Shown: positions 19,201-34,203 of the stretch, piece after piece
Layout of the letters: the number at the start of each line of letters is the position of its first letter
Numbering within the stretch: the first letter of the stretch is position 1
Source of the DNA: Labrys wisconsinensis
GTDB taxonomy: Bacteria; Pseudomonadota; Alphaproteobacteria; Rhizobiales; Labraceae
Length of the DNA stretch: 64,000 nt
Reading direction: 5' to 3'
NCBI RefSeq assembly: GCF_030814995.1
Contig: NZ_JAUSVX010000003.1
Coordinates: 434,001 to 498,000 of the forward strand
The notes under the pieces: generated by a model
Seen by the model: the letters and a program-made list of their open reading frames with translations, nothing else
Database searches by the model: none
What the model was told of the DNA's origin: nothing
Translations under genes and position numbers: made by a program

Positions 19201-20126
19201 ACGAGACCTTGCTCATCGTGCTCGGCGGCATCGTCGCGCTGCTGACGCTGGCCTCGCTCGTCGGCCATATGCTGGAGCGCCGCGCCGCCAAGCCGGAATC
19301 GGTCGCGACCGTGCGTAACCTCAACGCCCGCATCCGCTCGTGGTGGGTGATGGTCGTGGTGGTCGGCGGCGCCATCGCGCTCGGGCGCACGACGACCATC
19401 GTGCTGTTCGCCATCCTGTCCTTCATCGCGCTGCGCGAATTCTGGACCCTGACGCCGTCGCGACGCGGCGATCACCACGCGCTGTTCCTGTCGTTCTTCG
19501 TGGTGCTGCCGGTGCATTACGTCCTGCTCGGCATCGACTGGTACGGCATGTTCGTCATCTTCATCCCGGTCTACGCCTTCCTGATGCTGCCGGCCGTGGC
19601 GACGCTGACCGGCGACACCAAGGAGTTCCTGGCGCGCAGCGCCAAGGTGCAGTGGGGCCTGATGCTGACGGTCTATTCGATCAGCCATGCGCCGGCGCTG
19701 CTGATGCTCGACACCGGCAGGCCCAGCGCTCTGCTGGTCGTCTATCTCGTGATCGTGGTGCAGCTCAGCGACGTGTTCCAGTATGTCTGGGGCAAGCTGA
19801 TCGGCAAGCATCGCTTCTCGCCGAACATCAGCCCGTCGAAGACCGTCGAGGGGCTGGTGGGCGGCGGCCTGTCGGCGATCCTGGTCGGCACGCTGCTCTA
19901 CCGGCTGACGCCGTTCTCGCCGCTGCAGGCGGCCGCGGTGAGCGCGGTCATCGTGATCGCCGGATTCTTCGGCGGCTTCGTGCTGTCGGCGATCAAGCGC
20001 GACCTGAAGGCGAAGGATTGGGGCACTCTCATCGAGGGGCATGGCGGGGTCCTCGACCGCGTCGACTCGCTCACCTTCGCGGCGCCGCTGTTCTTCCACG
20101 TCACGCGCTACTGGTTTACGACCTGA
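19197..20126 (+). CDS. Phosphatidate cytidylyltransferase (CdsA/YnbB-like)
   Basis: Converts phosphatidate plus CTP to CDP-diacylglycerol. 309 residues, about eight membrane helices. The C-terminal signature SAIKRDLKAKDWGTLIEGHGG is the CdsA family pattern (S-x-x-KR-x4-KD-x-G-x3-x-GHGG), followed by DRVDSL. SPSKTVEGLVGG in the preceding loop is also conserved. The start overlaps the acyltransferase stop (ATGA). The gene order CDP-alcohol transferase / acyltransferase / cytidylyltransferase parallels the E. coli ynbAB region, suggesting a dedicated second phospholipid pathway rather than the housekeeping cdsA. Confidence 0.92.
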   Translation: MNETLLIVLGGIVALLTLASLVGHMLERRAAKPESVATVRNLNARIRSWWVMVVVVGGAIALGRTTTIVLFAILSFIALREFWTLTPSRRGDHHALFLSFFVVLPVHYVLLGIDWYGMFVIFIPVYAFLMLPAVATLTGDTKEFLARSAKVQWGLMLTVYSISHAPALLMLDTGRPSALLVVYLVIVVQLSDVFQYVWGKLIGKHRFSPNISPSKTVEGLVGGGLSAILVGTLLYRLTPFSPLQAAAVSAVIVIAGFFGGFVLSAIKRDLKAKDWGTLIEGHGGVLDRVDSLTFAAPLFFHVTRYWFTT

Positions 20127-20160
20127 GCCATCGCGTTCGCGCCGCACCGACAAGGGGACA

Positions 20161-20301
20161 ATGGCGATGCGCTGGGGCAAAGGGTTGATCCTCGCCGCGG
20201 TTCTTGCTGCCCTGTGCGCTCCTCCGGCGCGCGATGCGGCCGAGGCCCGGAAGCATCGTACGATCCGCGTCGCCTATCTCAGGCCGACGAATCCGCCCGG
20301 C
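20161..20301 (+). pseudogene. 5' fragment of an exported-protein gene, truncated
   Basis: A good ribosome site (AAGGGGA) precedes ATG 20161. The frame encodes MAMRWGKGLILAAVLAALCA, a clear signal peptide, then RKHRTIRVAYLRPTNPPG, which resembles the beginning of DUF4344-type secreted putative metallopeptidases (weak, from memory). At about 20301 coherent sequence ends exactly where the convergent PIN-toxin gene ends; beyond that the frame is only the antisense of the toxin. Thus the gene was cut when the TA pair arrived. It is 34 bp downstream of the cdsA-like gene and may have belonged to that operon. Confidence 0.65.
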
Positions 20302-20862
20302 TCATGTCGGGCGATAGAACAGCGCCCGCCCGGTCGGGACGAGCTGAAGCAGCACATCGTAGTCGCCGATATTCGCGGTCAGCACCACGAGGCCGAGCCT
20401 CTGGGCCTGCAGGAACAGCACGCAATCTTGCAGCGCGCGCAGCTTGCCGTCCTTCGCATAGCCCTGGAGGCGGCAGAGGATCCCGGACAGCAGCGCCGCT
20501 CTTCCGAGGATTTCCATGTCGGGCGCGAAGATCCGATGCGGCGGCATCGCCTTGACCTGCCTGCCGATCTCGGCAACGACGGCAGCGGTTCGCGCGTCGG
20601 ACGGGTCGAGCACGCCGACCGTGTGCATCAGCTCCTGGATCGCGACGGTGGAATGGTTGACCTGACGCCGGGCGATCAGATCGTCCAGCACGCGCGGCGA
20701 GCGCCCCTGCATCTGGTCGATATAGACGCAGGTGTCGAGCAGGAGCCCCTGCCCGCCAAGCCGGCTCTCCCTGACGAACGGCAGCTTATCGTCGTCGCGC
20801 CGCGCCAGCGTCCGCTGCGGATCGAACCGCGCCCAGCGCCGCGCCGCGTCGAAATCGAGCAC
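20302..20862 (-). CDS. PIN-domain toxin of a type II TA pair
   Basis: 186 residues, longer than typical VapC because of a ~38-residue N-terminal extension. PIN residues: D43 in LLLDTCVYID, E77 in IQELMHT, D146 in LRALQDCVLF and N164/D167 in TANIGDYD. The GTG start at 20862 lies directly after the antitoxin stop at 20864. Likely an RNase inhibited by the upstream-encoded protein. The 3' end abuts the truncated exported-protein gene. Confidence 0.82.
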   Translation of the reverse strand: MLDFDAARRWARFDPQRTLARRDDDKLPFVRESRLGGQGLLLDTCVYIDQMQGRSPRVLDDLIARRQVNHSTVAIQELMHTVGVLDPSDARTAAVVAEIGRQVKAMPPHRIFAPDMEILGRAALLSGILCRLQGYAKDGKLRALQDCVLFLQAQRLGLVVLTANIGDYDVLLQLVPTGRALFYRPT

Positions 20863-20863
20863 G

Positions 20864-21220
20864 TCAGAAGCCCAGCTTCAGCTCCGGGTCGACCTTGCCC
20901 CGCGCCTCCCTGAACATTTCGGCGAAATTGTCATCGAGCGCGATCGTCGCCAGGGCAAATTCGATCAGGTCCGTGTCCGCCTCGATGCCCGTCTGCCGCT
21001 TGGCCTGCCTCACCAGAGCCGGGCTTACCCTGCCGCCGATGCGGCCGCTCTTCTCGCCGAGGAGGCCCGACCGTTCCGCCGCCTGCATCACGGCCTCGAA
21101 GCGCGCCCTGCCAATGGCGGACCGGCCTGTTGCGTCATCGCGCCGAATGGCCCCAGCGCCGCCTTCGGAAGGGCTGTCGGCCCCTCGGGCCGATGGCTTG
21201 CTCGTCGATGCTTTCGTCAT
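20864..21220 (-). CDS. Antitoxin partner of the PIN toxin
   Basis: 118 residues. The N-terminal ~45 are polar and disordered; the rest (GRIGGRVSPALVRQAKRQTGIEADTDLIEFALATIAL) looks like a small helical or RHH-type DNA-binding unit, followed by a C-terminal tail (REARGKVDPELKLGF) that would thread into the toxin. The ATG at 21220 was chosen over an upstream-extended frame because the extension runs into the neighbouring DUF1989 gene. The adjacency to the toxin and a two-copy repeat upstream support the assignment. Confidence 0.75.
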   Translation of the reverse strand: MTKASTSKPSARGADSPSEGGAGAIRRDDATGRSAIGRARFEAVMQAAERSGLLGEKSGRIGGRVSPALVRQAKRQTGIEADTDLIEFALATIALDDNFAEMFREARGKVDPELKLGF

Positions 21221-21230
21221 GGCGCCCAAT

Positions 21231-21257
21231 GTTGAACAAAATCCAGTTTCGTTGAAC
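21231..21257 (-). promoter_or_regulatory. Direct repeats upstream of the TA pair, candidate operator
   Basis: GTTGAAC occurs at 21231-21237 and 21251-21257, exactly 20 bases apart (two helical turns), 11 bp before the antitoxin ATG at 21220. The spacing suits binding on one DNA face by an antitoxin multimer. It lies in the 40-bp gap after the last DUF1989 gene, so the TA pair may have its own promoter. Confidence 0.45.
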
Positions 21258-21260
21258 GTA

Positions 21261-21950
21261 TCACTCGAACGCGCCAGCTTCAAGGAACCCGCCCCGACCC
21301 GGCACCCACGCCCTGGACACGGGGACATCCGGGAACGCCTCGTCCAGAATCTCGACATGCACGTCGCGCGGCACGTTCGCCTCCCCGCCCTGGATCGGCA
21401 CGATGTCCTGCGGGCAGGCGGAGAAGGCGACGATCGCATCCATCTCGGCGCGCAGGCTGATGCTGTCGCCCGGCCGGCACGGCGTCGGCCCGGTGAGGAG
21501 GCTGCGGCCGTCGGGCTGGACGGCGATGTTCATGAAGATATTGAACGAGGCCAGGATCGATACCGGCGCCGTGAGGCCGATGCCGGCGAGCGCCTCGTGC
21601 ATGTTGTCGAGGCAGTTGCGATGATAGCCGGTGACGCCGAGCAGCCTGTAGCGGTGGCAGTCGCAGGCGGCCATGAAGCCGTCATGGATGCCGGGGGACG
21701 TGTCCGCGACGATGGTCAGGATCGGCCGGCGCCGGGTCGTCACCAGGCTGTCGCCGACCACCGGGTTGAGGCGCTGGCTCCAGACGCGGCTCGCCTCCAT
21801 CGACATGTGCTCGGTGAGATCGCCGGCGTTCCAGGCCCAGCAATCCACCACCTGGGTGCCATGGGTGTTGACGAGGCGCACGATCTGGCCCGCGGCCAGC
21901 CGGAAGGCCCGGCCGTGGCCGGCGGGAACGGTCGCGAGCGGGGCGGTCAC
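21261..21950 (-). CDS. DUF1989 (urea-carboxylase-associated) protein, paralogue A
   Basis: Family of the UAAP proteins; characterised members (CgdA/CgdB) form a carboxyguanidine deiminase that turns carboxyguanidine into allophanate. 229 residues with the complete set of family motifs: NTHGTQVVDCWAWN (29-41), RRRPILTIVADTSPGIHDG (73-91), CDCHRY (96-101), GYHRNC (108-113) and ACPQD (178-182). C96, C98, H99, H110, C113 and C179 are candidate metal or nucleophile residues. It closely resembles paralogue D. GTG start overlaps the stop of paralogue B (GTGA). Last gene of the operon. Confidence 0.85.
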   Translation of the reverse strand: MTAPLATVPAGHGRAFRLAAGQIVRLVNTHGTQVVDCWAWNAGDLTEHMSMEASRVWSQRLNPVVGDSLVTTRRRPILTIVADTSPGIHDGFMAACDCHRYRLLGVTGYHRNCLDNMHEALAGIGLTAPVSILASFNIFMNIAVQPDGRSLLTGPTPCRPGDSISLRAEMDAIVAFSACPQDIVPIQGGEANVPRDVHVEILDEAFPDVPVSRAWVPGRGGFLEAGAFE

Positions 21951-22612
21951 GGGCGTGCTCCATCAGCGGGGATCGATCGGCCGTCTTCGAGCCGGTTGTG
22001 GACGCGGACGCGCAGCACCCCGCGCCCACGGGCGATGCCGAGGTCGCTGGCGCCGGCGGCGACGAGAATGCGGCAATCGATCAGCACCCGGCAGGTCACC
22101 GCGCGGCCCGGGGCCGGCGCGGCGAGCCGGGGCACCAGCCGGCCGGACGGCTCCACCGCCACGTCGAGGAAGAGGTTCACGGGGTCGGGCAGCTTGGGGA
22201 CCGCGAGGCCGTGGCGCGCCAGCGCCGCCGCGGCGATGTCGCGCGGGTCCTCCTCGGCGAGGCCGGCGGCGGCCAGGCCCTCCCGGCTCGCCGCCGGCAG
22301 CAGCAGGTCGTGGCAGGCCCCGCCGTCGCGGCCGAGCACCATGATCGGCCGGCGCCGGTTGGTGACGAGCCGCATGCCGAGCGTCAGCCGGTAGGAATTG
22401 CTGAAGACGCGGGTGTGGTGGGGCGACAGGAACTCGCGCGCATCGGTTCTGGTAAAGGCGAAGAGCTGCGCCGCCCGGTCGCCTCCGACGTCCTCGATCG
22501 TCAAGAGCTGGCCGGCCGCGGCTTCGACCAGGGCCGCGGCACCATGGCCGATCTCGCAGGCGGCCTCCGCGGGATCGGGCCCGGCGGCCGGGATCGTCAT
22601 CAGGAACGGCAC
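21947..22612 (-). CDS. DUF1989 protein, divergent paralogue B lacking the Cys/His motifs
   Basis: 221 residues. It keeps the family scaffold (FAFTRTDAREFLSPHHTRVF, TNRRRPIMVLGRDGGACHD, PVNLFLDVAVEPSG) but the C-x-C-H, H-x-N-C and CPQD segments are gone: the last is replaced by AGASDLG near 193. It may therefore be a non-catalytic partner subunit, as found in other heteromeric enzymes. GTG 22612 is the start because GGAGGTGAC lies just upstream. Coupled to paralogue C (4-bp gap) and A (4-bp overlap). Confidence 0.8.
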   Translation of the reverse strand: MPFLMTIPAAGPDPAEAACEIGHGAAALVEAAAGQLLTIEDVGGDRAAQLFAFTRTDAREFLSPHHTRVFSNSYRLTLGMRLVTNRRRPIMVLGRDGGACHDLLLPAASREGLAAAGLAEEDPRDIAAAALARHGLAVPKLPDPVNLFLDVAVEPSGRLVPRLAAPAPGRAVTCRVLIDCRILVAAGASDLGIARGRGVLRVRVHNRLEDGRSIPADGARP

Positions 22613-22616
22613 GGCG

Positions 22617-23279
22617 TCACCTCCCCGCCCATTGCGGTGCCGCGTCGGAGACGACGACGCGCATGTCGGTCACTTCGAGCCCGTTGCCGGGAATGATGTC
22701 CTGCGGACAGGGCGAGAGGGCACAGACGACGTCCATCAACGCCCGGAGCACGAGATGGTCGCCCGGACGGCTGACCGGGTCCGTCACCATCATCCGTCCG
22801 TCCGGCGTCACCGGCCCGTTCTGGAAGAAGTTGAAGGGCTCTGGCACGTCGAGCACATCGATGCCGTGGGGGGCGAGCGCCTCGAACAGGTTCTCCAGGC
22901 AGTTGCGATGGCCGGGCACGCCGAAATCGACGGCATAGCGGGTGGGATCGCAGGCCGGCACGTTGGAATCATGGATGCCGACCGTGTCGGCGACGACCTC
23001 GAACATCGGCCGGTCCCGGGAGGACCAGAGGCAGTCGCCGATCGCAAAGAACAGCGACATGTTGCGGCGCCGGGTGTGGATCGGCGACAGGACCTCGGCG
23101 AGGTCGTCGCGGTTCAGCGCCACGAAGTCGCCGGCCTGCCGGCCGAAGAGATCGATCAGCGTCAGATATTGCCCGGCCGAGGCTGCGAAGCCGTGGCCGA
23201 AGCCGCCCGGCACGGTCTCGTCGCGGGCGACCGCGGCGAAGGACGGCAGCGGGCAGGCGCAGCGCGAGAGGCGGCTCAT
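22617..23279 (-). CDS. DUF1989 protein, paralogue C
   Basis: 220 residues. Motifs: FGRQAGDFVALN (45-56), LSPIHTRRRN (64-73), VADTVGIHDS (97-105), ACDPTRY (C110; the second Cys and His of C-x-C-H are absent), GHRNC (H124, C127), SPCPQD (C191, D194). The LSPIHTRRRN segment sets it in a different subgroup from paralogues A and D, which have MSME..SR, as expected for the two subunit types of a CgdAB-like heteromer. The ATG overlaps the stop of paralogue D (ATGA). Confidence 0.84.
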   Translation of the reverse strand: MSRLSRCACPLPSFAAVARDETVPGGFGHGFAASAGQYLTLIDLFGRQAGDFVALNRDDLAEVLSPIHTRRRNMSLFFAIGDCLWSSRDRPMFEVVADTVGIHDSNVPACDPTRYAVDFGVPGHRNCLENLFEALAPHGIDVLDVPEPFNFFQNGPVTPDGRMMVTDPVSRPGDHLVLRALMDVVCALSPCPQDIIPGNGLEVTDMRVVVSDAAPQWAGR

Positions 23280-23881
23280 CCCAGCACCGCGAAATGCGCC
23301 TCGGTCGGCGGATGGCCGAGGCCGTTGATCGGCAGGATGTCCTGCGGGCAGGCGGAGAAGGCGATGACGAGGTCCATCTCGGCCTTCAGGGCGACATAGC
23401 TGCCGGGCGTCGACACCGGCGCCTCGAAGGAGATGGTCCGGTCGGGCTTGACCGGTATGTTCATGAACAGGTTCAGCGGGCTCGGCACCTCCGGCGCTGC
23501 CAGGCCGATCTCCTTCATCCCGGCATGGAGGTTGTCGGTGCAATTGTCGTGATAGCCCTCGACGCCGAGGAACTTGTAGCGGTGGCAGTCGCAGGCGGCG
23601 ACGATGGTGTCGTGGATACCGCCCGACGTATCCTCGACGAAGGTGAGGATCGGCCGGCGCCTGTTGGTCAGCATGGTGTCGCCGACCACCGGGATGATCT
23701 TCAGGATGTGAGCGCGGCTGTGCTCCATCGACATGAATTCGGTGAGATCGTCGGCGTTGAAGGCCCAGGTGTCGACCACCTGGTCGCCATGGGTGTTGAT
23801 CACCTTGACGATCTGGCCCTTGCGCACGCGGTGCGCCTTGCCGCGGCGGGCCGGAATCGTCAGCAGCGCCTCGTCGGTCAT
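23276..23881 (-). CDS. DUF1989 (urea-carboxylase-associated) protein, paralogue D
   Basis: 201 residues with all motifs: NTHGDQVVDTWAFN, FMSMEHSR, RRRPILTFVEDTSGGIHD, CDCHRY (C97, C99, H100), GYHDNC (H111, C114) and SACPQD (C178, D181). Start ATG 23881 is chosen because GGAG lies 7 bases upstream; two ATGs 6 and 21 bases earlier are also in frame. It follows the ureohydrolase gene by 20 bp and is coupled to paralogue C. Likely the same subunit type as paralogue A, so the operon may encode two isoenzymes. Confidence 0.85.
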   Translation of the reverse strand: MTDEALLTIPARRGKAHRVRKGQIVKVINTHGDQVVDTWAFNADDLTEFMSMEHSRAHILKIIPVVGDTMLTNRRRPILTFVEDTSGGIHDTIVAACDCHRYKFLGVEGYHDNCTDNLHAGMKEIGLAAPEVPSPLNLFMNIPVKPDRTISFEAPVSTPGSYVALKAEMDLVIAFSACPQDILPINGLGHPPTEAHFAVLG

Positions 23882-23901
23882 GCTCATGCTCCTCGAACTC
23901 A

Positions 23902-24855
23902 TCAGGCTTGGACGGGATGGGCGTCGCGCCAGCGCGGCTGGGCGCAGATCTCGGCGAGGAAGCCGATCACCAGGGTGGCGCCGAGATAGGCGGTGGCCCC
24001 GGTGCCGACGTCCAGCGGCGGGTTGACCTCGACGAGGTCGAAGCCGACGACCTCGCAGCGCGCGGCAACCGTCGCCAGGGCGTCGCGCAGCTCGGGATAG
24101 GTCATGCCGTCGGGCTCGCCCGAGACGCAGCCGGGCACCAGCGACATGTCGAGCGCGTCGATGTCGATCGAGACATAGACCGGTGCGCCTTCCGGCAGCA
24201 GGGCGGCGATGCCGGCCGGCCCGAGCGCCCGCACCTCCGGCATCGGCACCACGCGGTTGCCCCGGGCCTCGATATCCCTGTGCTGCTTGCGCTGGGAGCG
24301 CAGCGAGCGGATGCCGACCTGGGTCAGGCTCAGCGCGGTGTCGAGGCCGGCCATGTGGCGGAAGGCATGGCCGTTGGTGAAGCGCATGCCGTCCTCTTCC
24401 TCGGCATAGTCCATATGCGCATCAAAATGCAGGATGTGCACCGGCCGCTCGAAGGCGCGGAAGATGGGATAGGCGATGGAATGGTCGCCGCCGAGGCCGA
24501 CCGGCAGCGCGCCCCTGGCAAGGATGCCCTTCACCGTGGCGGTGATGTTGGCGAAGCTCTTCTCGACATGGGTCGGCGCGATGTCGACGTCGCCGACATC
24601 GGCGATCATCCGTCCCGCAAGCTCGGGCTTCAGGAGTTCGCGCCGGGTGGCGGGGTCGTAGAGCCCGCCGGTGAAGCGCAGCGAGTGCTCGCGGATGGCG
24701 CGCGGGCCCATGCGGCTGCCGGGCAGGAAGGGCGAGCCCTCGTCGAAAGGCACGCCGTAGACCGCGATCGGCGCCGTCAGCTCCGCCAGGTCCTCGCAGA
24801 TCGGCGCACGCAGGAAGGAAGGGATGCCGACATAGGGGCGGTCGATGCGGGGCAT
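23902..24855 (-). CDS. Ureohydrolase of the agmatinase/arginase family (copy 1)
   Basis: Metal-dependent hydrolase that releases urea from a guanidino compound. All six metal ligands are present: H125 in GGDHS, D145, H147 and D149 in DAHMD, D231 and D233 in SIDIDALD. 317 residues. The family includes agmatinase, guanidinobutyrase, guanidinopropionase and the nickel enzyme guanidine hydrolase, and substrate cannot be told from these motifs. The substrate loop VPGCVSGEPDG departs from common agmatinases as I remember them. It lies between an amino-acid-type ABC transporter and four DUF1989 genes in one operon, so a guanidino substrate taken up by that transporter is inferred. Confidence 0.9.
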   Translation of the reverse strand: MPRIDRPYVGIPSFLRAPICEDLAELTAPIAVYGVPFDEGSPFLPGSRMGPRAIREHSLRFTGGLYDPATRRELLKPELAGRMIADVGDVDIAPTHVEKSFANITATVKGILARGALPVGLGGDHSIAYPIFRAFERPVHILHFDAHMDYAEEEDGMRFTNGHAFRHMAGLDTALSLTQVGIRSLRSQRKQHRDIEARGNRVVPMPEVRALGPAGIAALLPEGAPVYVSIDIDALDMSLVPGCVSGEPDGMTYPELRDALATVAARCEVVGFDLVEVNPPLDVGTGATAYLGATLVIGFLAEICAQPRWRDAHPVQA

Positions 24856-24889
24856 GGGCGAATCTTCCGGGAGGGATGATGGTGCCGCC

Positions 24890-25669
24890 TCAGGCGCGGC
24901 CGGGGCGGACGAGGTCGAGGAAGGCGGCGAGGCGCGGATCGGCCGGGGTGCTCAGCACCGTCTTTGCCGGCCCGTCCTCGAGGATGCGTCCGCCGTCCAT
25001 GAAGGCGACGCGATCCGCGACATGGGCGGCGAAACCGATCTCATGGGTGACGACGATCATGGTCATGCCGGTCGCGGCGAGGTCGCGCAGCAGGGCCAGC
25101 ACTTCGCCGACGCGTTCGGGATCGAGCGCCGAGGTCGGCTCGTCGAACAGCATCAGGGCCGGGTCCATGGCCAGGGCGCGGGCGATGGCGGCGCGCTGCT
25201 TCTGGCCGCCGGAGAGGGCATAGGGAAAGCGGTCGACCAGCGCGCCGAGCCCGAGATCGGCAAGGAGCGTCCGCGCCCGCGCCGTCGCCGCCTCGCGGCT
25301 GCGGCGCAGCACGACGACCTGGGCGCGCACGACGTTCTCCAGCACGGAGAGGTGCGGCCAGAGGTTGAACTGCTGGAACACCATGCCGATACGCGGGCGC
25401 ATGGCGTCGATGGCGCGCCCGCTCTGCCGCCGGATGGTGGCCCCGACCTGCTCGCGGCCGAAGGGACGGCCGTCGATGCGGATCAGGCCGTCGTCGGGCG
25501 GCTCCAGCCAGGTGAGGCAGCGCAGCAAGGTGCTCTTGCCGCAGCCGCTCGGCCCGAGCAGCGCCACGACCTCGCCTTTGGCGACGTCGAGATAGATGTC
25601 GTCGAGGACGCGCGTGCCGCGAAACGCCTTGCGCAGTCCGGAGACGGAGAGCAGCGGGGCGGGCTTCAT
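24890..25669 (-). CDS. Polar amino-acid-type ABC transporter ATP-binding protein
   Basis: 259 residues. Walker A GPSGCGKST (about 39-47), Q-loop VFQQFNLWPHLSV, signature LSGGQKQR, Walker B ALMLFDEPTSALD, and the switch His in VVTHE. FNLWPH and the order of motifs are typical of the GlnQ/HisP family. The ATG at 25669 overlaps the permease stop (ATGA). Works with permeases at 25666 and 26392 and the binding protein at 27080 to import the operon's substrate. Confidence 0.93.
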   Translation of the reverse strand: MKPAPLLSVSGLRKAFRGTRVLDDIYLDVAKGEVVALLGPSGCGKSTLLRCLTWLEPPDDGLIRIDGRPFGREQVGATIRRQSGRAIDAMRPRIGMVFQQFNLWPHLSVLENVVRAQVVVLRRSREAATARARTLLADLGLGALVDRFPYALSGGQKQRAAIARALAMDPALMLFDEPTSALDPERVGEVLALLRDLAATGMTMIVVTHEIGFAAHVADRVAFMDGGRILEDGPAKTVLSTPADPRLAAFLDLVRPGRA

Positions 25670-26388
25670 CGCGCCGGCCTCCGGTCGAGCGACAGGAAGC
25701 TCGCCGCCAGGGCGCTGCGCTCGACGTCCTGGCGCTCGGCCACGCCGGTGCGGGCCTCGAACAGGGCCGCCGCCCGGGCGACCAGGATGGCGATGGCCCA
25801 GTAGATCAATGTCACCGCGGCGAAGGCCTCGAACGGGGCGAAGGTGTTTCCCTGCACGACGAGGCTCTGATAGGTCAGCTCGGCCACGGTGATGGAGCTC
25901 AGCACCGAGGATTCCTTGACCATGGTCAGCGTCATGTTGACCGAGGGCGGCACGAGGCCGCGCAGGATCTGCGGGAAGACGATGTGCCGCATGGCCTGGA
26001 GCGGCGACATGCCGACGACGCGGGCCGATTCGAACTGGCCGCGCGGCAGGGCGACGATCGCCGCCCGCCCGATCTCGGCGTAATAGGCGCTGGCGAACAG
26101 CGACAGCGCCACGGTGCCGGTGACCACGGCGGGGAAGCGGACGCCGGCGAAGGGCAGGCCGTAATAGACCAGGAACAGGATGATGATGAACGGGATGGCC
26201 CGGAGCACCGCGAGATAGACCGCCACCAGCGCCTGCACGATCCGGCTCGGCACCAGCGACAGGAGCGCGACGAGGATGCCGAGGGCATAGCCGACCACGA
26301 AGGCCGTGAGGCAGATGCGGACGGTCAGCCAGGCCCCCTGCAGCAGGATCGGCCAGTACTGGGCGAGGATGCCGATATCGAAGCGCAC
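25666..26388 (-). CDS. Polar amino-acid-type ABC transporter permease (HisMQ family)
   Basis: 240 residues with five membrane helices. The EAA-like loop reads ESARVVGMSPLQAMRHIVFPQILR, which docks with the ATPase, and the N-terminal WLTVRICLTAFVVGYALG is the family hallmark. Second permease gene of the pair, 3 bp after the first. Confidence 0.92.
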   Translation of the reverse strand: MRFDIGILAQYWPILLQGAWLTVRICLTAFVVGYALGILVALLSLVPSRIVQALVAVYLAVLRAIPFIIILFLVYYGLPFAGVRFPAVVTGTVALSLFASAYYAEIGRAAIVALPRGQFESARVVGMSPLQAMRHIVFPQILRGLVPPSVNMTLTMVKESSVLSSITVAELTYQSLVVQGNTFAPFEAFAAVTLIYWAIAILVARAAALFEARTGVAERQDVERSALAASFLSLDRRPAR

Positions 26389-26391
26389 GGC

Positions 26392-27051
26392 TCAGGCCCT
26401 CGCATCCGCCATGCGGCGTTCGAGCAGGCGGCCGGCGGCCATGACCGCGAGATTGATGGCGAGGAAGCACAGGGCCGCGCCGACCAGCGTCTCGAACGGG
26501 CGGTAGCTGGCGCTGGCGATCTGCTGGGCGGTGCGCAGCACGTCCACCACCGTGATGACGGAGAGCAGCGCCGTGCCCTTGACGATGATGGTGACCTCGT
26601 TGACCAGCACCGGCAGGATGCGGCGGAAGAGCTGGGGCAGCACCACGGCGAGCCAGATCGCGCGGCGCGACAGGGCGAGCGCGCTCGCCGCCTCGACCTG
26701 CCCGGGCGGGATGGATTGCAGGCCGGCGCGCATGATCTCGGTGATGAAGATGGCGCTGTTCAGCGAGAGCGCCGCGACGCCGGCGACCTCCGGCCGAAGA
26801 TCGAGGCCGAAGGCCGGCGCGACATAGTAGAAGATGAAGATCTGGATCAAGAGCGGCGTGCCGCGGATGAAGGAGATCATCACGCCGATCAGGCCGTTGA
26901 CCACGCCGATCTTCATGGCTCTCAGGACGGTGAGGCCGGTGCCGCCGAGAACGGCGAGCACCACCACGATCGCGGCGAGGCGCAGGTTGACCAGCGCCGC
27001 CTCGATGAGCGCCGGCAGGACGGACATGAGGGTCGCGACCTGGAAGGACAT
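26392..27051 (-). CDS. Polar amino-acid-type ABC transporter permease (HisMQ family)
   Basis: 219 residues, five membrane helices. EAA loop EAASALALSRRAIWLAVVLPQLFRR; the segment IRGTPLLIQIFIFYY is the classic HisM/GlnP motif. It forms a heterodimer with the adjacent permease. It follows the binding-protein gene by 28 bp. Confidence 0.92.
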   Translation of the reverse strand: MSFQVATLMSVLPALIEAALVNLRLAAIVVVLAVLGGTGLTVLRAMKIGVVNGLIGVMISFIRGTPLLIQIFIFYYVAPAFGLDLRPEVAGVAALSLNSAIFITEIMRAGLQSIPPGQVEAASALALSRRAIWLAVVLPQLFRRILPVLVNEVTIIVKGTALLSVITVVDVLRTAQQIASASYRPFETLVGAALCFLAINLAVMAAGRLLERRMADARA

Positions 27052-27079
27052 GAGGTCCCGCGCTCCCGCCCGGGCCGCG

Positions 27080-27940
27080 TCAGATCGCGTCCGGCGGCAG
27101 GTAGCCGCTGTCGGGGATGGTCATCTTGAAGCCGAACCACTTCTCCTGCAGCGCGCCGAGGCGACCGTCGTCGCGCATGGTGCGGATCACGCCGGAGATG
27201 AAGTCGCGCAGGTCCTTGTCCTCCGGCCGCGTGACCCAGGCGAGATAGGTATAGGGCGAGCCGGCCTTGACCGGCCCCAGGAGCTCGAACGTGTCGGCCT
27301 TCTCCTTGACCAGCACGGCAAGGCTCGGCAGCGACTGGATCACCGCGTCGACCTCGCCGTTGGCCAGCGCCACATAGGCCTCGGTGAAGGCGGTGTAGAG
27401 CTTGAGGTCGGAGAAGCCGCTGCCGCCGGCGGCCTTCAGCTTGGCGTCGAAGTCGCGCGCCACCGGCTCGGTCGAGGAGGCAAGCTGCGTCGCCACGACC
27501 TTGCCGTTGAGGTCGTCGGCGCTCTTCAGCGCGTCGCCCTTGCGCTTCATCGCATAGGGCTCGCCGCTGGCGATCGGCAGCGTGTAGGCGTAGCGCTTGG
27601 CCCGCTCCTCGTTGATGCCGACGGTGGTGGCGACGAAGTCGAACTTGCCGGCCAGCACGCCGGGCAGGATGCCCTGCCAGGGCAGGTCGAGCTGCTCGAG
27701 CGTGACGCCGAGCGCCTTGACCACCTCGACGAGGATGTCGCTGCCATAGCCGACGATCTTGCCGTCCTTGATGAACTCGAAGGGCGGGAAGGCCGCCTCG
27801 GTGCCGACCGTCACCTTGCCGGCGCGGCGGATCTTCTCCAGCGTGGTTTCGGCGAAGGCCGGCCCCGTGGCCCCGAGGGTCGCCAGGGCGACGCCGGTGC
27901 AGAGCATTCCGAAGTGTCGGCGCGAGATGTCATGCGGCAT
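27080..27940 (-). CDS. Periplasmic amino-acid-type substrate-binding protein
   Basis: 286 residues from ATG 27940 (a frame 20 codons longer has no similarity). The N-terminus SRRHFGMLCTGVALATLGA is a twin-arginine-type signal, unusual for this family and suggesting folding before export. The mature part shows KVTVGTEAAFPPFEFIKDGKIVGY, the family signature for alpha-amino-acid ligand binding, then GKFDFVATTVGINEERAKRYAYT. The ligand may be arginine-like or another guanidino compound, judged only from operon context. Confidence 0.9.
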   Translation of the reverse strand: MPHDISRRHFGMLCTGVALATLGATGPAFAETTLEKIRRAGKVTVGTEAAFPPFEFIKDGKIVGYGSDILVEVVKALGVTLEQLDLPWQGILPGVLAGKFDFVATTVGINEERAKRYAYTLPIASGEPYAMKRKGDALKSADDLNGKVVATQLASSTEPVARDFDAKLKAAGGSGFSDLKLYTAFTEAYVALANGEVDAVIQSLPSLAVLVKEKADTFELLGPVKAGSPYTYLAWVTRPEDKDLRDFISGVIRTMRDDGRLGALQEKWFGFKMTIPDSGYLPPDAI

Positions 27941-27968
27941 GGGACGGCTCCTGTGGCGGCGGTGGAGG

Positions 27969-28934
27969 TCAGGCTCGGGGCGGGTCGAAATAGCCGGCAC
28001 GCACGGCGGCGCCGACCAAGTTCACGATCAGGCGGCCGGCGACGATGCTGGTGATGCCGTGCAGATCGGTTGAGGGCGTGATTTCCACGATGTCCATGCC
28101 GAGGACCCGGCCCTTGCGGACCAGGCCGTGGATCAGCTTGCGCACCTGGTGGAAGGTGAGGCCGCCCGGCGCCGGCCCTTCCACGGCCGGCATGACGGAG
28201 GGGTCGAGCCCGTCGGCGTCGATGGTGATGTAGTAGCGCCCGCCGTCGGGGATGCGGTCGATGATCGCGTCGATGCCCTGGTCGTGCACCTCGAAGGCGG
28301 GAATGATGTTGGCGCCATAGGCCTTCGCGGCCTCGACCTCCTCCGGGCGGGCGCTGCCCTGGGAGCGGATGCCGATCTGGAAGATCTCGCCGATATGGTC
28401 CATCTCGGAGGCGCGGCGGATCGGGCTCGACAGGCCGTCATGCACCCCGTTCACGTGCTCGCGCCAGTCGATATGGGCGTCGACCTGGATCAGCGTGACC
28501 GGCCCCTCGCCGTCCAGCGCCCGGAAGATCGGGATCGGGATGCCGTGGTCGCCGCCGATGGTGATCGGCATGGCGCCGGCGGCGAGAATCTTGCGGATCG
28601 CCGCTTCGGCCCGGCCGAAATGGCTGCGATGGTCGTGGATGTCGAAAGGCACGTTGCCGACGTCGACCGCCTTGACCGGCCGGTTGTCGTAGATCGGGCC
28701 GCCGACGTCGAAATCGTAGCGCTCGAGGCCGCGCGACACCCGGTCGGTGACGGCGCGGACCGCGTCGGGCGCCAGGGTCTGGTCGTTGGAGACCGCGCCC
28801 GGCGTGTAGGCATTGCCGAACGGCATGCCGATGAAGGCGATATGTGCGTCGAGCCTGTCGAGATCGGGCGCATAGGGCGCATAGAGGAACGTGGCGTGCC
28901 CGGCATTGGGAGCGATGGTCAAAGGCAAGGACAT
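27969..28934 (-). CDS. Ureohydrolase of the agmatinase/arginase family (copy 2)
   Basis: 321 residues. Metal ligands complete: H130 in GGDHG, D152, H154 and D156 in VDAHID, D239 and D241 in TIDADGLD. It differs strongly from the copy at 23902 (GGDHGIPIPIFRALDG; DWREHVNGVHDG; PAVEGPAPGGLT), so the two are not recent duplicates and probably act on different guanidino substrates or successive steps. ATG 28934 is preferred; an in-frame ATG at 28982 would extend it into the operator. First gene of the ten-gene operon, 28 bp before the binding-protein gene. Confidence 0.9.
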   Translation of the reverse strand: MSLPLTIAPNAGHATFLYAPYAPDLDRLDAHIAFIGMPFGNAYTPGAVSNDQTLAPDAVRAVTDRVSRGLERYDFDVGGPIYDNRPVKAVDVGNVPFDIHDHRSHFGRAEAAIRKILAAGAMPITIGGDHGIPIPIFRALDGEGPVTLIQVDAHIDWREHVNGVHDGLSSPIRRASEMDHIGEIFQIGIRSQGSARPEEVEAAKAYGANIIPAFEVHDQGIDAIIDRIPDGGRYYITIDADGLDPSVMPAVEGPAPGGLTFHQVRKLIHGLVRKGRVLGMDIVEITPSTDLHGITSIVAGRLIVNLVGAAVRAGYFDPPRA

Positions 28935-28974
28935 GGCCGCAAACCGCCTATAAAAGCAACACGATGAACAACGA

Positions 28975-28993
28975 TTGATCATGTACTGATCAA
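28975..28993. promoter_or_regulatory. Perfect palindrome between the guanidino operon and its LysR gene
   Basis: TTGATCA (28975-28981) and TGATCAA (28987-28993) with a 5-bp spacer, lying 41 bp before the ureohydrolase ATG and 86 bp before the LysR gene. Divergent LysR regulators typically bind such a dyad to control both promoters. The nearby TATAA-like stretch at 28949-28954 may be promoter material. Confidence 0.6.
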
Positions 28994-29078
28994 ATCTTGC
29001 TCAGCTCCAAGGATGGTGCGTGTTCATGGCATGTATTTCAATTGCAAAGATCGAAACCATGCTTGTAGGCTCTGCAAC

Positions 29079-29999
29079 ATGAACGCGCACTCAGCCAAGC
29101 CGATCTCTGCGCTGACCGAAAACGACCTTCGGCTGATGCGCATCTTCCGCGTGGTCGCCGAAAGCGGCGGGCTGACCGCGGCCGAGCTGCGGCTCAACAT
29201 GGAACGCTCCACCATCAGCCGGCACATCAAGGCGCTGGAGCATCGGCTGGGCGGGTGCCTGTGCCTGCGCGGGCCGGCCGGCTTCGAGCTGACCGATCTC
29301 GGCGACACCGTGCTGGCGGCCGCCATCGCGGCCTGTGACACGCTGGACACGGTGCGCGACGACCTCAACCGGGCGCGCAACATCCTCACCGGAGACCTGG
29401 TGGTCGGCATCGCCGACAATTGCCTCAGCAATCCGGCATGCCGCGTCGCCGACGCCCTCGCCCGCCTCAGCGCCGAGGCGCCGGCCGTGCGCATTCACCT
29501 CGTCGTGCACCCCCCTGCCGCGCTCGGGCGGGAGCTCCTGGCGCGGCACCTGCATCTGTGCATCAACGGCGCCGTGGCGCAGGAGGAGGACTTCGTGCGC
29601 CATCCCCTGTTCCGCGAGGAATTCCGGCTCTATGCCCGCCGCCTCGACACGGGCCCTCCCCTCGCCTTCGCCGACCTGGCGGAGCGGGCTTACGGCGTCG
29701 TCACCCGGGTCGGCGACCCGCACAGCCAGCGGCTCGCCGCCTTCCTGCCCGACGCCAGCCAGGCCGTGGCGCTGGGGCTCGAAGCCGTCGCCGCGCTGAT
29801 CGCCGGCGGGCGCCATGCCGGCCTGCTGCCGACGCATTACGCCGCGTTGCTGGCGCCGAACTGTGGCCTGGAAGAAGTGCGGGACGCCGACCACGTCCTC
29901 TACGATTCACCGTTCTTCCTGAACTACGAGCGCAGCCGGCCGCTGTCGGCGCCCGGCCGGCGGTTCCGCGACCTGGTCCGAGAGTGCCACGGGCACTGA
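29079..29999 (+). CDS. LysR-family transcriptional regulator
   Basis: 306 residues from ATG 29079; a longer frame from 29013 adds 22 residues with several Cys and no family similarity. Helix-turn-helix: FRVVAESGGLTAAELRLNMERSTISRHIKALEHRLGG, with the usual LysR spacing, then LTDLGD. The C-terminal co-inducer domain starts LVVGIADNCLSN. Divergent from the guanidino-compound operon, hence its probable activator. Confidence 0.9.
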   Translation: MNAHSAKPISALTENDLRLMRIFRVVAESGGLTAAELRLNMERSTISRHIKALEHRLGGCLCLRGPAGFELTDLGDTVLAAAIAACDTLDTVRDDLNRARNILTGDLVVGIADNCLSNPACRVADALARLSAEAPAVRIHLVVHPPAALGRELLARHLHLCINGAVAQEEDFVRHPLFREEFRLYARRLDTGPPLAFADLAERAYGVVTRVGDPHSQRLAAFLPDASQAVALGLEAVAALIAGGRHAGLLPTHYAALLAPNCGLEEVRDADHVLYDSPFFLNYERSRPLSAPGRRFRDLVRECHGH

Positions 30000-30092
30000 T
30001 CCCGGCATCGCCGGCGAACTCCTTTCTCGGCAACGGCAGACGACGACCCGACAAATCGGGAAACCCGCTCGCCATCTTGTTGCATTGACCGG

Positions 30093-30105
30093 TTGTCATA
30101 TGACC
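30093..30105 (+). promoter_or_regulatory. Palindrome upstream of the second sugar ABC operon, candidate GntR site
   Basis: TTGTCATATGACC contains the perfect 10-bp palindrome GTCATATGAC (30095-30104), about 90 bp before the binding-protein ATG. The left half TTGTCAT is identical to the half-sites at 39559 and 46299, so the same FadR-type regulator may bind here, though the spacing of the right half differs. Confidence 0.5.
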
Positions 30106-30194
30106 GGGAATGTGGGAGGCTGCATCGCCTTCGAAGCGGCCCGGCAGAGGCGCGCTCGATCGCGGGAAACCACCCGAAGGAAAGGCACGACACG

Positions 30195-31268
30195 ATGCGT
30201 CCCCTCCTCCCCGCGGCGACACTCGATCGCCGGCGCTTCATCATCGGCGCGACGGGCGCCATGGCGGCCCTGGGGCTGCCGACGCGCGCCTATGCGGCAG
30301 CGCCCACCCTCGTGACCTCGATCCGCTCCTTGTCCAACCCCTATCACGCGGTGTGGAAACAGGGCGCCGAGGCCTTCGCCAAGGCCGCCGGCCTCGATCA
30401 CGTCACGCTGGTCTCCGAGGGCAACAGCGAGAAGGGCATCGCCGACGTCAGGGCCATGCTGGCCAAGACCGGCGGCAACATGATCCTCAACTCGGACCCG
30501 AACGACACGCCGGATGCGCGGCCGATCGTCGAGGCCTGCGTCAAGGCCGGCGCCTATGTGGTGACGCAGTGGAACAAGCCGGCGGACCTGCATCCGGCCG
30601 ACTTCAACCCGAACTATGTCAGCCACATCGAGTTCGACGGCATCTCCAGCGGCAAGACCATCGCCGAGATCCTGTTCAAGACGATCGGCGGCTCCGGCGG
30701 CATCATCGCCCTCGGCGGCATGATCTCGACCACCGCCGCGATCGAGCGCAAGAAAGGGCTCGACCAGGCGCTCGCCGCCACGCCCGGCATCAAGCTCCTC
30801 GACTTCCAGGTGGCGAACTGGAAATCCACCGAGGCCTACGACATCACCGGCGGACTGCTGACGCGCTTCGGCGACCAGATCAAGGGCATCTGGGCGGCGA
30901 ACGACGACATGGGCGTCGGCGCGCTCGAGGCGCTGCGCGGCGAGGGCCTGGCGGGCAAGATTCCGATCGTCGGCGTGGACGGGATCAAGTCGGCCGTCGA
31001 TGCGGTGCGCACCGGCGAGTTCGCCTGCACCGTGACCTCCGATCCCTTCTGGCAGGGCGGGATGGGCCTCTCCATCGGCCTCGCCGCCTCCAGCAAGAGG
31101 ATCGATCCGGCGAAGGAGCCTTCGGAGCACCGCGAGTTCTACGGCAAGGCGGTGCTGATCGCGAAGGACAATGTCGAGGACTATTACAAGACCAATGTCG
31201 AGGCGAAGCCGACGCTCGACTGGAACGATCTGTGGGGACGAGTGGTGGGCCCCATCCGCCAGAGCTGA
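30195..31268 (+). CDS. Periplasmic sugar-binding protein of a CUT2 ABC transporter
   Basis: 357 residues; ATG 30195 follows AAGGAAAGG. The N-terminus DRRRFIIGATGAMAALG is a twin-arginine signal ending near AYAA. The body is a type I periplasmic-binding fold: LVTSIRSLSNPYHAVWKQGAEAFAKAAG, WAANDDMGVGALEALRGEG and IPIVGVDG are the ligand-binding strands and hinge typical of ribose/xylose-type proteins. It is followed, after a 356-bp gap filled mostly by a palindromic repeat, by permease-ATPase-permease genes. Confidence 0.92.
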   Translation: MRPLLPAATLDRRRFIIGATGAMAALGLPTRAYAAAPTLVTSIRSLSNPYHAVWKQGAEAFAKAAGLDHVTLVSEGNSEKGIADVRAMLAKTGGNMILNSDPNDTPDARPIVEACVKAGAYVVTQWNKPADLHPADFNPNYVSHIEFDGISSGKTIAEILFKTIGGSGGIIALGGMISTTAAIERKKGLDQALAATPGIKLLDFQVANWKSTEAYDITGGLLTRFGDQIKGIWAANDDMGVGALEALRGEGLAGKIPIVGVDGIKSAVDAVRTGEFACTVTSDPFWQGGMGLSIGLAASSKRIDPAKEPSEHREFYGKAVLIAKDNVEDYYKTNVEAKPTLDWNDLWGRVVGPIRQS

Positions 31269-31372
31269 GCCGGGCGCCGGAGGACGTGACGGGCGCGAGG
31301 ACTGGAACCGTGTTCCGATCTAAAGAACCCTTGGGACGTCTGTACGAATAAATGCTGCAGATGAGACGTGCA

Positions 31373-31584
31373 GAACCCCTCTCCCGATTGGGAGAGGGGC
31401 AGGGGTGAGGGTCTAAACGACCGACCAGTGAAGCACTCGTCGAGCAATCGGATGCCGAAAATTCACCCCTTTCCGGCGAGGTCTAGTCCCTCACCCCTGC
31501 CCGTCTCCCGCAAGTCGGATGTTTCCGACTTGCTCATTAAAAACCAATCTCGGGAACACCCGAGATTGGTCGGGAGAGGGGTTC
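31373..31584. repeat. Nested palindromic repeat element (REP/MITE-like)
   Basis: 212 bp with no coding capacity. The ends are perfect 15-bp inverted repeats (31373-31387 and 31570-31584). A second perfect 15-bp pair lies inside (31397-31411 and 31488-31502). The right half holds two more perfect hairpins: 10-bp arms 31510-31519/31524-31533 with loop TGTT, and 12-bp arms 31543-31554/31559-31570 with loop AACA. The CCCTCTCCC...GGGAGAGGG and GGGGTGAGGG words are typical of dispersed bacterial intergenic repeats. It splits a binding-protein gene from its transporter genes and could act as an RNA stem that lowers downstream expression. Flanks 31269-31372 and 31585-31624 show nothing else. Confidence 0.8.
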
Positions 31585-31624
31585 CGCGCTCTACATTGAT
31601 TCAGCGGATCCTTAGGACGCAGCA

Positions 31625-32686
31625 GTGACCGAACGGGTGCCGGCGACCTTGAACACGGACCAGCTCGACTCCGCCCCCGCCGTGGAGCGGCTCGGGGGCC
31701 TGCCCTCGCAGCTCGCGGCCCTGCGCCGATGGCTGCCGGACAAGGCGCGAGGACGCTCGCTGGCCCCGCTCTTCGTGCTCATCGGGCTCTGCGCGCTGAT
31801 CGCGCTCGCCAACCCGGCCTTTCTCGAGCTGCGCAATCTCGTGCGCATCGCCAATTCGGCGGCCGTGCCCCTGACGCTCGCCATGGGGCTCACCTTCATC
31901 ATCCTCCTCGGCAGCATCGACCTCTCCATCGAGGGTGCAGTGTCGGTGGCAGCCATGGTGCTGGTGCTGCTGGCGGCCAATGACAGCAACGGCAACGACC
32001 TTGGTTGGATCGCGATGGCCGCGGCCATCGCGGCCAGCACGGCCATGGGCGCGGCGAGCGGCATCGTCCAGACCGGGCTGCGCATCCCCTCCTTCATGGC
32101 GACGCTCGGCATGTGGTTCATCGGGCTCGGCTTCTCCGTCTACATGCTGGGCGGCTCGGCGGTCCGGCTGATGGACCCGGCGCTGCGGGCGCTCGCCCTG
32201 ACGCGGGTGCTCGACCTGCCGCTCGGCGTCTGGATCGCCGCCGGCAGCTTCCTCGTCGCGCTCGTCGTCCAGAACCACACCCTTCTCGGCCGGCACATCG
32301 TGGCGGTCGGCGGAGGCGAGGACATTGCCGAGCTGTCGGGCATCGAGCCCAGCCGGGTCAGGATAGCCGCGTTCGCGCTCGCCGGCTTCTTCTACGGCAT
32401 CGCCGGCGTGCTCGCCGCGGCGCAGCTCGGCCAGTCCAACGCGGTGATCGGCGACGGGCGACTCTTCGCCGCCGTCACGGCCGTGGTGGTCGGCGGCACG
32501 GCGCTCACCGGCGGCGAAGGCGGCGTCGTCAACACGCTGATCGGCGTCCTGATCGTCACGGTCCTGTCCAACGGCATGATCCTCCTCGGCATCTCGCCCT
32601 ATGTGCAGCAGACCGCCCAGGGCCTGATGATCATCGCCGCGGTCGCGCTGTCGCTCGACCGCACCCGCCTTTCCATCGTGAAGTAG
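31625..32686 (+). CDS. Ribose-type ABC transporter permease
   Basis: 353 residues, start GTG 31625. About ten membrane helices; contains the family motif IDLSIEGAVSVAA and the ATPase-contact loop VGGGEDIAELSGIEPSRVR. An extended N-terminal tail of ~45 residues is rich in charged residues. Five bases separate it from the ATPase gene. A second, different permease gene follows the ATPase, so the channel is probably a heterodimer. Confidence 0.92.
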   Translation: MTERVPATLNTDQLDSAPAVERLGGLPSQLAALRRWLPDKARGRSLAPLFVLIGLCALIALANPAFLELRNLVRIANSAAVPLTLAMGLTFIILLGSIDLSIEGAVSVAAMVLVLLAANDSNGNDLGWIAMAAAIAASTAMGAASGIVQTGLRIPSFMATLGMWFIGLGFSVYMLGGSAVRLMDPALRALALTRVLDLPLGVWIAAGSFLVALVVQNHTLLGRHIVAVGGGEDIAELSGIEPSRVRIAAFALAGFFYGIAGVLAAAQLGQSNAVIGDGRLFAAVTAVVVGGTALTGGEGGVVNTLIGVLIVTVLSNGMILLGISPYVQQTAQGLMIIAAVALSLDRTRLSIVK

Positions 32687-32691
32687 CCGCC

Positions 32692-34194: not shown

Positions 34195-34203
34195 GGGAGA
34201 GCG

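Follow-up and report, generated by a model that had tools for sequence, protein, structure and literature searches.

We analysed a 64,000-nucleotide stretch of the Labrys wisconsinensis genome (contig NZ_JAUSVX010000003.1, positions 434,001 to 498,000; this whole stretch is the window below) and found that a ten-gene operon in it, encoding two ureohydrolases, an amino-acid-type ATP-binding cassette (ABC) transporter and four DUF1989 proteins, is best seen as two modules, each of which also moves on its own, fused into one. The computations give directly the gene content of the operon, its two-module history, the pairing of a zinc-bearing DUF1989 protein (B) with a site-less one (C), and a genome in which no guanidine carboxylase is detectable. 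As a tentative account of function, to which we assign a probability of about 0.38 as a whole, we propose that the operon is under LysR control and scavenges nitrogen from a guanidino or amidino acid, joining ureohydrolases with DUF1989 proteins that hydrolyse C=N bonds. Our confidence in the two-module history, and in the exclusion of the carboxyguanidine route, is much greater than in this whole account.

The operon is a minus-strand run of ten open reading frames (ORFs) at 21261-28934, all of which match the expected Pfam families over cut-off (Arginase PF00491 twice, SBP_bac_3, BPD_transp_1 twice, ABC_tran, and DUF1989 PF09347 four times; the gathering score of PF09347 is 27 bits). These assignments, the tight packing and the divergent LysR gene agree with a first-pass annotation of the window, which had described the same four DUF1989 genes, two ureohydrolases and amino-acid-type transporter. 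In order of transcription we named the genes arg1, sbp, pm1, pm2, atp, arg2, dufA, dufB, dufC and dufD. With the chosen starts, the intergenic gaps from arg1 to dufD are 28, 28, 3, -4, 34, -1, -4, 4 and -4 bp, and this packing, together with the conservation of the arrangement, suggests that the ten genes form one transcript. The features are as follows:

27969..28934, minus strand: arg1, the first gene, a ureohydrolase (Arginase family) of module 1; PF00491 at 1e-58, 199.5 bits; GGDH, DAHID and IDAD metal motifs intact
27080..27940, minus strand: sbp, a family-3 solute-binding protein of module 1; PF00497 at 7.5e-30; longest ORF begins at 28000
26392..27051, minus strand: pm1, an amino-acid-type ABC permease of module 1; PF00528 and TIGR01726 over cut-off
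25666..26388, minus strand: pm2, an amino-acid-type ABC permease of module 1; PF00528 and TIGR01726 over cut-off
24890..25669, minus strand: atp, the ABC ATPase of module 1; PF00005 at 2.4e-36
23902..24855, minus strand: arg2, the second ureohydrolase of module 1; PF00491 at 4.1e-66, 223.7 bits; GGDH, DAHMD and IDID metal motifs intact
23276..23902, minus strand: dufA, DUF1989 of module 1 with full zinc-site residues; PF09347 at 8.5e-53, 178.9 bits; 3oru at 211 bits
22617..23279, minus strand: dufB, DUF1989 of module 2 with full zinc-site residues; PF09347 at 1.5e-49, 168.4 bits
21947..22612, minus strand: dufC, DUF1989 of module 2 with the zinc site lost; PF09347 at 1.5e-26, 93.5 bits
21261..21950, minus strand: dufD, DUF1989 of module 2 with full zinc-site residues; PF09347 at 1.2e-46, 158.9 bits
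29079..29999, plus strand: LysR-type regulator, divergent from the operon; PF00126 and PF03466; longest ORF begins at 29013
29039..29078, no strand: conserved 40-bp block in the LysR/arg1 intergenic region, GTTGC...TACAAGCA.GGTTT...GCAATTG; candidate LysR site

The longest ORF of arg1 begins at 28982, and its most likely start is 28934, the one given in the first-pass annotation. The transporter is of the polar amino acid ABC type (SBP_bac_3, HEQRo-type permeases and an ATPase), and the N-terminus of sbp looks like a signal peptide by eye. In an alignment of seven loci, the 40-bp block is clear in the window, L050, L051 and L158, partly kept in L130, looser in L131 and weak in L133.

The neighbourhood search across genomes that the first-pass annotation had suggested returned all ten genes and the LysR gene, in unchanged order, in two further genera, Antarcticirhabdus (L050) and Aurantimonas endophytica (L051), so the ten-gene arrangement is not a matter of chance. 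Between the window and these two loci, arg1, arg2 and dufA are 85-91% identical. The first module consists of the LysR gene and, divergent from it, arg1-sbp-pm1-pm2-atp-arg2-dufA, with dufA as its only DUF1989 gene when it stands alone. It occurs complete and free of dufBCD in Chelatococcus CO-6, Salipiger CCB-MM3 and genome G217, and Neorhizobium NCHU2750 has the module-1 set without any DUF1989 gene. The second module consists of dufB-dufC, a third DUF1989 gene, an amino-acid-type transporter of its own and an RpiR regulator, and stands alone in ten loci.

A search of genome contigs with the dufB alignment returned 30 loci, 19 of which hold dufB relatives at 46% or less with no dufC noted. 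Together with a Palleronia plasmid and the window, the other 11 (L050-L060) make up 13 dufB-dufC loci, each with a third DUF1989 gene that bears the zinc site. The modules are joined in three of the 13 (the window, L050 and L051, here called composites), and the operons of the other ten have no arg1, arg2, dufA or LysR gene. A tblastn search with the Bosea RpiR matched all ten stand-alone module-2 loci and neither L050 nor L051; the regulator is Pfam-confirmed in the three module-2 loci that were scanned and is annotated in Palleronia. This regulator and the second transporter are absent from the fused operon, where dufA and dufB overlap by 4 bp in all three composites. In the tree, the composites cluster together for dufB, dufC and dufD (support 0.78, 0.97 and 0.98). 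Among the ten stand-alone loci, six (L055-L060) have a third DUF1989 protein from a different clade than dufD, and in one (L055, Chthonobacter) a pair more remotely related to arg1/arg2 (36 and 32%) lies about 6 kb away.

The operon is patchily distributed. The four same-genus genomes searched gave no arg1 match at E 1e-100, and of 396 other genomes of the order just two (G154 and G281) yielded a dufC match of at least 42% over near full length. A contig search with dufC alone gave no match, and a class-level search of 385 genomes with a dufC profile gave no clear further orthologue; its best other match (L081) keeps all the zinc-site residues. More distant arg1 relatives (56-68% identity) lie in varied contexts (RidA, M20 peptidase, MmgE/PrpD, DUF6282 and others) that do not point to a substrate.

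The zinc site divides the four DUF1989 proteins of the operon. In trimethylamine N-oxide (TMAO) demethylase (Tdm), the DUF1989 domain binds zinc through three Cys, a His and an Asp are proposed for a second metal, and the same protein also has a DUF1989-like domain without the zinc cysteines (PMC12560246, excerpt). We mapped these columns on 145 DUF1989 domains, which remained from 197 found once duplicates, contained copies and pieces shorter than 140 aa were dropped. All three Cys, the His and the Asp are present in dufA, dufB and dufD, and the dufB residues C110, H124, C127, C191 and D194 are invariant in 12 of 12 aligned sequences. The picture for dufC is different: among 13 sequences the first Cys is kept in none, the second in none, the His in one, the third Cys in four and the Asp in all 13. 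dufC directly follows dufB in 13 of 13 loci and, having lost the site, is probably a partner subunit and not an enzyme. The earlier idea of four DUF1989 processing enzymes thus probably does not extend to dufC. A structure model of dufC has the DUF1989 fold at moderate confidence (mean predicted local distance difference test score 77.7; best PDB match 3siy, E 2.4e-12); a second model has a mean score of 71.8, and DUF1989 structures top both fold searches, which do not indicate the chemistry. One solved DUF1989 protein, PDB 3di4 (SPO0365), appears in a list of proteins unique to producers of a sulfur-containing aminolipid (PMC8319176, excerpt).

CgdAB is the carboxyguanidine deiminase of the guanidine carboxylase pathway (PMC12186494, excerpt), and the first-pass annotation had read DUF1989 proteins as its subunits. 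That CgdAB belongs to the family stands; the family also provides the zinc domain of TMAO demethylase (PMC12560246, excerpt), and the four operon proteins fall outside the CgdAB clade. In a FastTree phylogeny of the 145 domains (midpoint rooted), all four are separated from the UAAP (CgdAB) clade with local support 1.0. Neither the UAAP1 nor the UAAP2 equivalog model of NCBIfam is reached (best 124.4 against 284.7 bits, and 74.9 against 205.95 bits). CgdAB (UAAP1/UAAP2, TIGR03425/TIGR03424) and the operon share the encoding of two unlike subunits together, and the alignments show a similar pairing: the three zinc Cys are kept in UAAP2 (7/7), as in dufB, and the first two are lost in UAAP1 (7/7), as in dufC, with the third kept (7/7). 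The two systems differ in that the operon proteins form a separate clade, no guanidine carboxylase is detected, an amino-acid-type transporter and ureohydrolases are present, and a LysR regulator stands in place of a guanidine riboswitch. In the tree dufC does not group with UAAP1; it is on a long branch and its exact placement is uncertain.

Furthermore, we asked for carboxylase, allophanate hydrolase and urease genes in 14 genomes: the three composites, nine with module 2 (those of L052, L053, L054 and L057-L060, and G154 and G281), G217 with module 1 and G052 with UAAP1/2 and dufA, the Palleronia genome being left out. Some of these assemblies are drafts or metagenome-assembled genomes (MAGs), in which absence is not proof. 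A urea/guanidine carboxylase exceeds the cut-off in one of the 14 (G779, the Devosia MAG of L052) and in none of the three composites, and a partial match of 896 bits lies at a contig end in G785, the Devosia MAG of L060. In the window genome no urea carboxylase is over cut-off, the best match (552 of 1303.85 bits) being to the biotin carboxylase part. Twelve of the 14 genomes have an allophanate hydrolase over cut-off, the Antarcticirhabdus (L050) and Aurantimonas (L051) composites being the two in which none is detected; urease alpha was found in 13 of the 14, among them all three composites. The first-pass annotation had reported neither carboxylase nor allophanate hydrolase in the window. 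None is among the ten genes, and no listed match of the genome searches falls inside the 64-kb window, which is itself not fully annotated. The genome-wide search that it had called for bore out the lack of a carboxylase; it also revealed two allophanate hydrolases and a urease, all outside the window. Because no carboxylase is detected in the three composites and no allophanate hydrolase in two of them, the known guanidine pathway is unlikely for this operon. Tree, NCBIfam cut-offs and genome content together speak strongly against CgdAB identity for its DUF1989 proteins.

At another locus (L044, contig 24 of G052), UAAP1 and UAAP2 genes are joined by a gene of the dufA type and an amino-acid-type transporter. 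No urea carboxylase was detected in this genome, and these CgdAB-like proteins may have another job. A 1211-aa ORF near this locus, considered as a urea carboxylase, is actually DNA polymerase III alpha.

We then asked what accompanies DUF1989 genes elsewhere in the order. A dufC search matched 123 of 397 genomes; leaving out the window genome and two module-2 genomes, we surveyed the 40 top-ranked at one locus each, with about 7 kb per side where the contig allowed, and used as controls one arbitrary contig-1 stretch from the same genomes, which existed for 35 of 40 (453 kb against 535 kb of survey). A ureohydrolase lies no more than about 7 kb from DUF1989 in 16 of the 40 loci, against none of the 35 controls (Fisher p = 7.8e-6), in a sample that ranking by dufC similarity biases, probably against UAAP types, and in which related genomes are not independent and several stretches are short. 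The 16 include the G217 locus with module 1. In ten loci the matched DUF1989 and ureohydrolase segments lie at most 212 bp apart, six of them on the same strand. Amino-acid-type permeases are also enriched (12/40 against 1/35, Fisher p 0.0019), and solute-binding proteins (9/40 against 0/35), M20 hydrolases (5/40 against 1/35) and amidases (5/40 against 2/35) were counted as well, with polysaccharide deacetylase at 1/40. Neither urea carboxylase nor allophanate hydrolase turned up in the 40 survey loci or the 35 controls. The ureohydrolase linkage away from guanidine carboxylase makes it likely that DUF1989 acts on a product other than carboxyguanidine, as the first-pass annotation had proposed. 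DUF1989, ABC transporter and ureohydrolase genes also occur together at L185, L202, L215 and L216; on contig 24 of the window genome (L046), a DUF1989 gene lies with an ABC ATPase, a permease and an arginase-family gene, and a LamB/YcsF (5-oxoprolinase A-like) gene is close by.

Both ureohydrolases, arg1 and arg2, are below the cut-off of every NCBIfam model listed for agmatinase, guanidinobutyrase, guanidinopropionase and guanidine hydrolase, with 138.8 and 135.2 bits for TIGR01230 (agmatinase, cut-off 174.3 bits). Two Chelatococcus proteins of the arg1/arg2 type are also below the agmatinase cut-off, and among ureohydrolases from DUF1989 loci of other types five of six are above it, the sixth scoring 173.5 of 174.3. 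With agmatinase, guanidinobutyrase, guanidinopropionase and GdmH the pair shares the Arginase family and the metal motifs; it differs in some substrate-site residues and in being encoded as a pair in one operon. By sequence the closest solved relative of arg2 is the agmatinase 1wog (194 bits), and 7esr, which we take to be the guanidine hydrolase Sll1077 (PDB entry title "probable agmatinase 2"), reaches only 129 bits. The first-pass annotation had raised a nickel guanidine hydrolase, which finds no support: Pfam detects no nickel-loading accessory genes among the ten operon genes, to which this search was confined, and a guanidine riboswitch gave no match at E up to 1 in window positions 20000-34000. 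Two ureohydrolase genes within one operon are also known from the metformin hydrolase MetCaCb, of which one subunit only binds metals (PMC11271267, excerpt). Unlike there, arg1 and arg2 both keep the metal motifs, which rules out a MetCaCb-like pseudo-subunit.

The solute-binding protein offers a further hint. In family-3 proteins an Arg binds the substrate carboxylate and an Asp the alpha-ammonium group. The Arg position is kept in 22 of 22 aligned proteins; the Asp is kept in all eight module-2 proteins aligned (those of L055 and L056 being outside the alignment) and is replaced by Ser in all six that belong to operons of the LysR|arg1 type (the window, L050, L051, Chelatococcus, Salipiger and Neorhizobium). 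Because of this replacement, the alignment suggests that the operon transporter takes an acid without a free alpha-amino group.

Under our preferred account, this family-3 ABC transporter would import a guanidino or amidino acid, probably one of that kind. The arg1 and arg2 enzymes would split guanidino groups into urea and an amine, with the urea passing to urease; transport, urea release and urease use are proposed because of family membership. In the weakest step, the zinc DUF1989 proteins (A, D, and B with its partner C) would act as amidine or imine C=N hydrolases and deiminate the same compound or an intermediate. By analogy with CgdAB on carboxyguanidine, a guanidino group of another substrate would become a ureido group with release of ammonia. 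On our own reading, both reactions assigned to DUF1989 proteins can be written as the addition of water to a carbon-nitrogen double bond.

Several observations weigh against this account. TMAO demethylation, the other assigned DUF1989 chemistry, is no deimination. The composite retains the solute-binding protein of module 1 alone and those of module 2 look different, so that dufBCD may not have access to the imported compound; module 2 also normally occurs without ureohydrolases, and 24 of the 40 survey loci have none nearby. In guanidinobutyrase GbuA, Arg72 may contact the substrate carboxylate (PMC9772407, excerpt). At this position, counted by hand in the alignments, arg1 has Glu and arg2 has Thr, and the two enzymes thus give no clear support to a guanidino-carboxylate substrate. 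Finally, polysaccharide deacetylase and amidase genes accompany DUF1989 in 7 of 15 annotated plasmid regions, which hints at ureide-type substrates.

These 15 regions were picked by hand, their gene tables are incomplete, and UAAP-annotated matches exist in the collection. Urea carboxylase or allophanate hydrolase is listed in none of the 15, an amino-acid-type transporter is nearby in seven, and a GntA-like heme protein in one. The seven with polysaccharide deacetylase and amidase (L135, L139, L172, L174, L175, L177 and L178, from Proteobacteria and Actinomycetes), sometimes with a cytosine permease or a PucR regulator, look like a separate ureide-type pathway. In Caballeronia and Pantoea, DUF1989 directly follows an M20 hydrolase in an amino-acid-type ABC operon and is accompanied by a cupin as well; M20 neighbours would be expected if DUF1989 made a ureido compound. 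In Sphingomonas (L173:5866-7229) and Sphingopyxis (L073:9295-10579), it directly follows a YqcI/YcgG (GntA-like heme protein) gene. The flanks of the operon itself hold, just downstream of dufD, two small minus-strand ORFs (20302-21220) that resemble a toxin-antitoxin pair by eye and have no Pfam match, and, after the LysR gene, a plus-strand sugar-type ABC transporter (30093-35169; binding protein, two permeases and ATPase).

The first-pass annotation had proposed a joint pathway; linkage of DUF1989 with ureohydrolases here and elsewhere in the order speaks for it, but the two modules are usually apart and a single ten-step pathway is not implied. The modules could instead be unrelated and merely have the LysR promoter in common, ureohydrolases and dufA serving one imported compound and dufBCD another. 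Each module is indeed found alone, and Asp in the module-2 binding proteins stands where those of module 1 have Ser. Yet the 4-bp dufA-dufB overlap in every composite, the fused operon in three genera and the disappearance from it of the module-2 regulator and second transporter argue for joint function, and we hold this alternative to be unlikely, if the foremost of those considered. It is followed by a reading, likewise unlikely, in which DUF1989 acts on linear or cyclic ureides, as in purine- or hydantoin-like breakdown, and not on guanidines. The seven plasmid loci that combine DUF1989 with polysaccharide deacetylase and amidase (in some cases also cytosine permease or PucR) and the loci with M20 hydrolase and cupin fit such substrates, but they carry other DUF1989 members, and in the order survey the ureohydrolase link is the commoner one (16/40, against 1/40 for polysaccharide deacetylase and 5/40 for amidase).

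Two readings would place the operon with a described enzyme. DUF1989 B, C and D might resemble TMAO demethylase and act on an N-oxide or an N-methylated guanidino compound, from which a methyl or similar group would leave as an aldehyde. The proteins dufA, dufB and dufD have the zinc DUF1989 site of Tdm with its three Cys and conserved His and Asp, and Tdm too combines it with a DUF1989-like domain in which the zinc cysteines are missing (PMC12560246, excerpt). In NCBIfam, the TMAO demethylase model (NF053776) matches dufA, dufB and dufD in its DUF1989 part, far below its cut-off (best 151.2 against 1100 bits). But the operon proteins are short and separate, with no sign of a link to TMAO, none of the four has a GCV_T domain by Pfam, no formaldehyde-handling gene is among the ten, and the genome carries a separate DUF1989-GCV_T fusion resembling TMAO demethylase (contig 12, L048:7459-9858), so that we think this reading quite improbable. 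The other reading, in which the operon proteins are ordinary CgdAB of the guanidine carboxylase pathway with the remaining genes elsewhere, is strongly disfavoured. It could call on family membership, on an unlike pair as in UAAP2/UAAP1 and on the two allophanate hydrolases of the window genome, and it is opposed by the position of the proteins outside the CgdAB clade and below both NCBIfam cut-offs, by three composites with no carboxylase over cut-off and two with no allophanate hydrolase detected, and by the unmatched guanidine riboswitch.

Beyond the nitrogen-scavenging account of this operon, DUF1989 might be a wide-ranging group of zinc proteins that hydrolyse C=N bonds (amidine/imine hydrolases), with CgdAB and Tdm as special cases, in which the pairing of a zinc-bearing with a site-less protein arose more than once (CgdAB, Tdm and dufB-dufC); with ureohydrolases, it would form a widespread undescribed route for guanidino acids in Hyphomicrobiales and relatives, of which the operon is the largest version in the material analysed. 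We regard this wider view as possible but doubtful. The parts are known families. Among the matches listed in the open-licence literature, judged mostly by titles and the openings of abstracts, we found no DUF1989-ureohydrolase operon, dufB-dufC pair or DUF1989-ureohydrolase link, and within that limited scope the combination, the pair and the link are apparently undescribed.

DUF1989 genes are common and are often annotated as urea-carboxylase-associated. As ureohydrolases are frequent neighbours and urea carboxylase or allophanate hydrolase is near none of 40 loci, our results suggest that this name misleads for many DUF1989 genes, at least in this order. The operon provides an example of two catabolic gene sets united behind one regulator, and a compact gene set for asking what these zinc proteins do, why site-less partners recur, and how guanidino compounds serve bacteria as a source of nitrogen.

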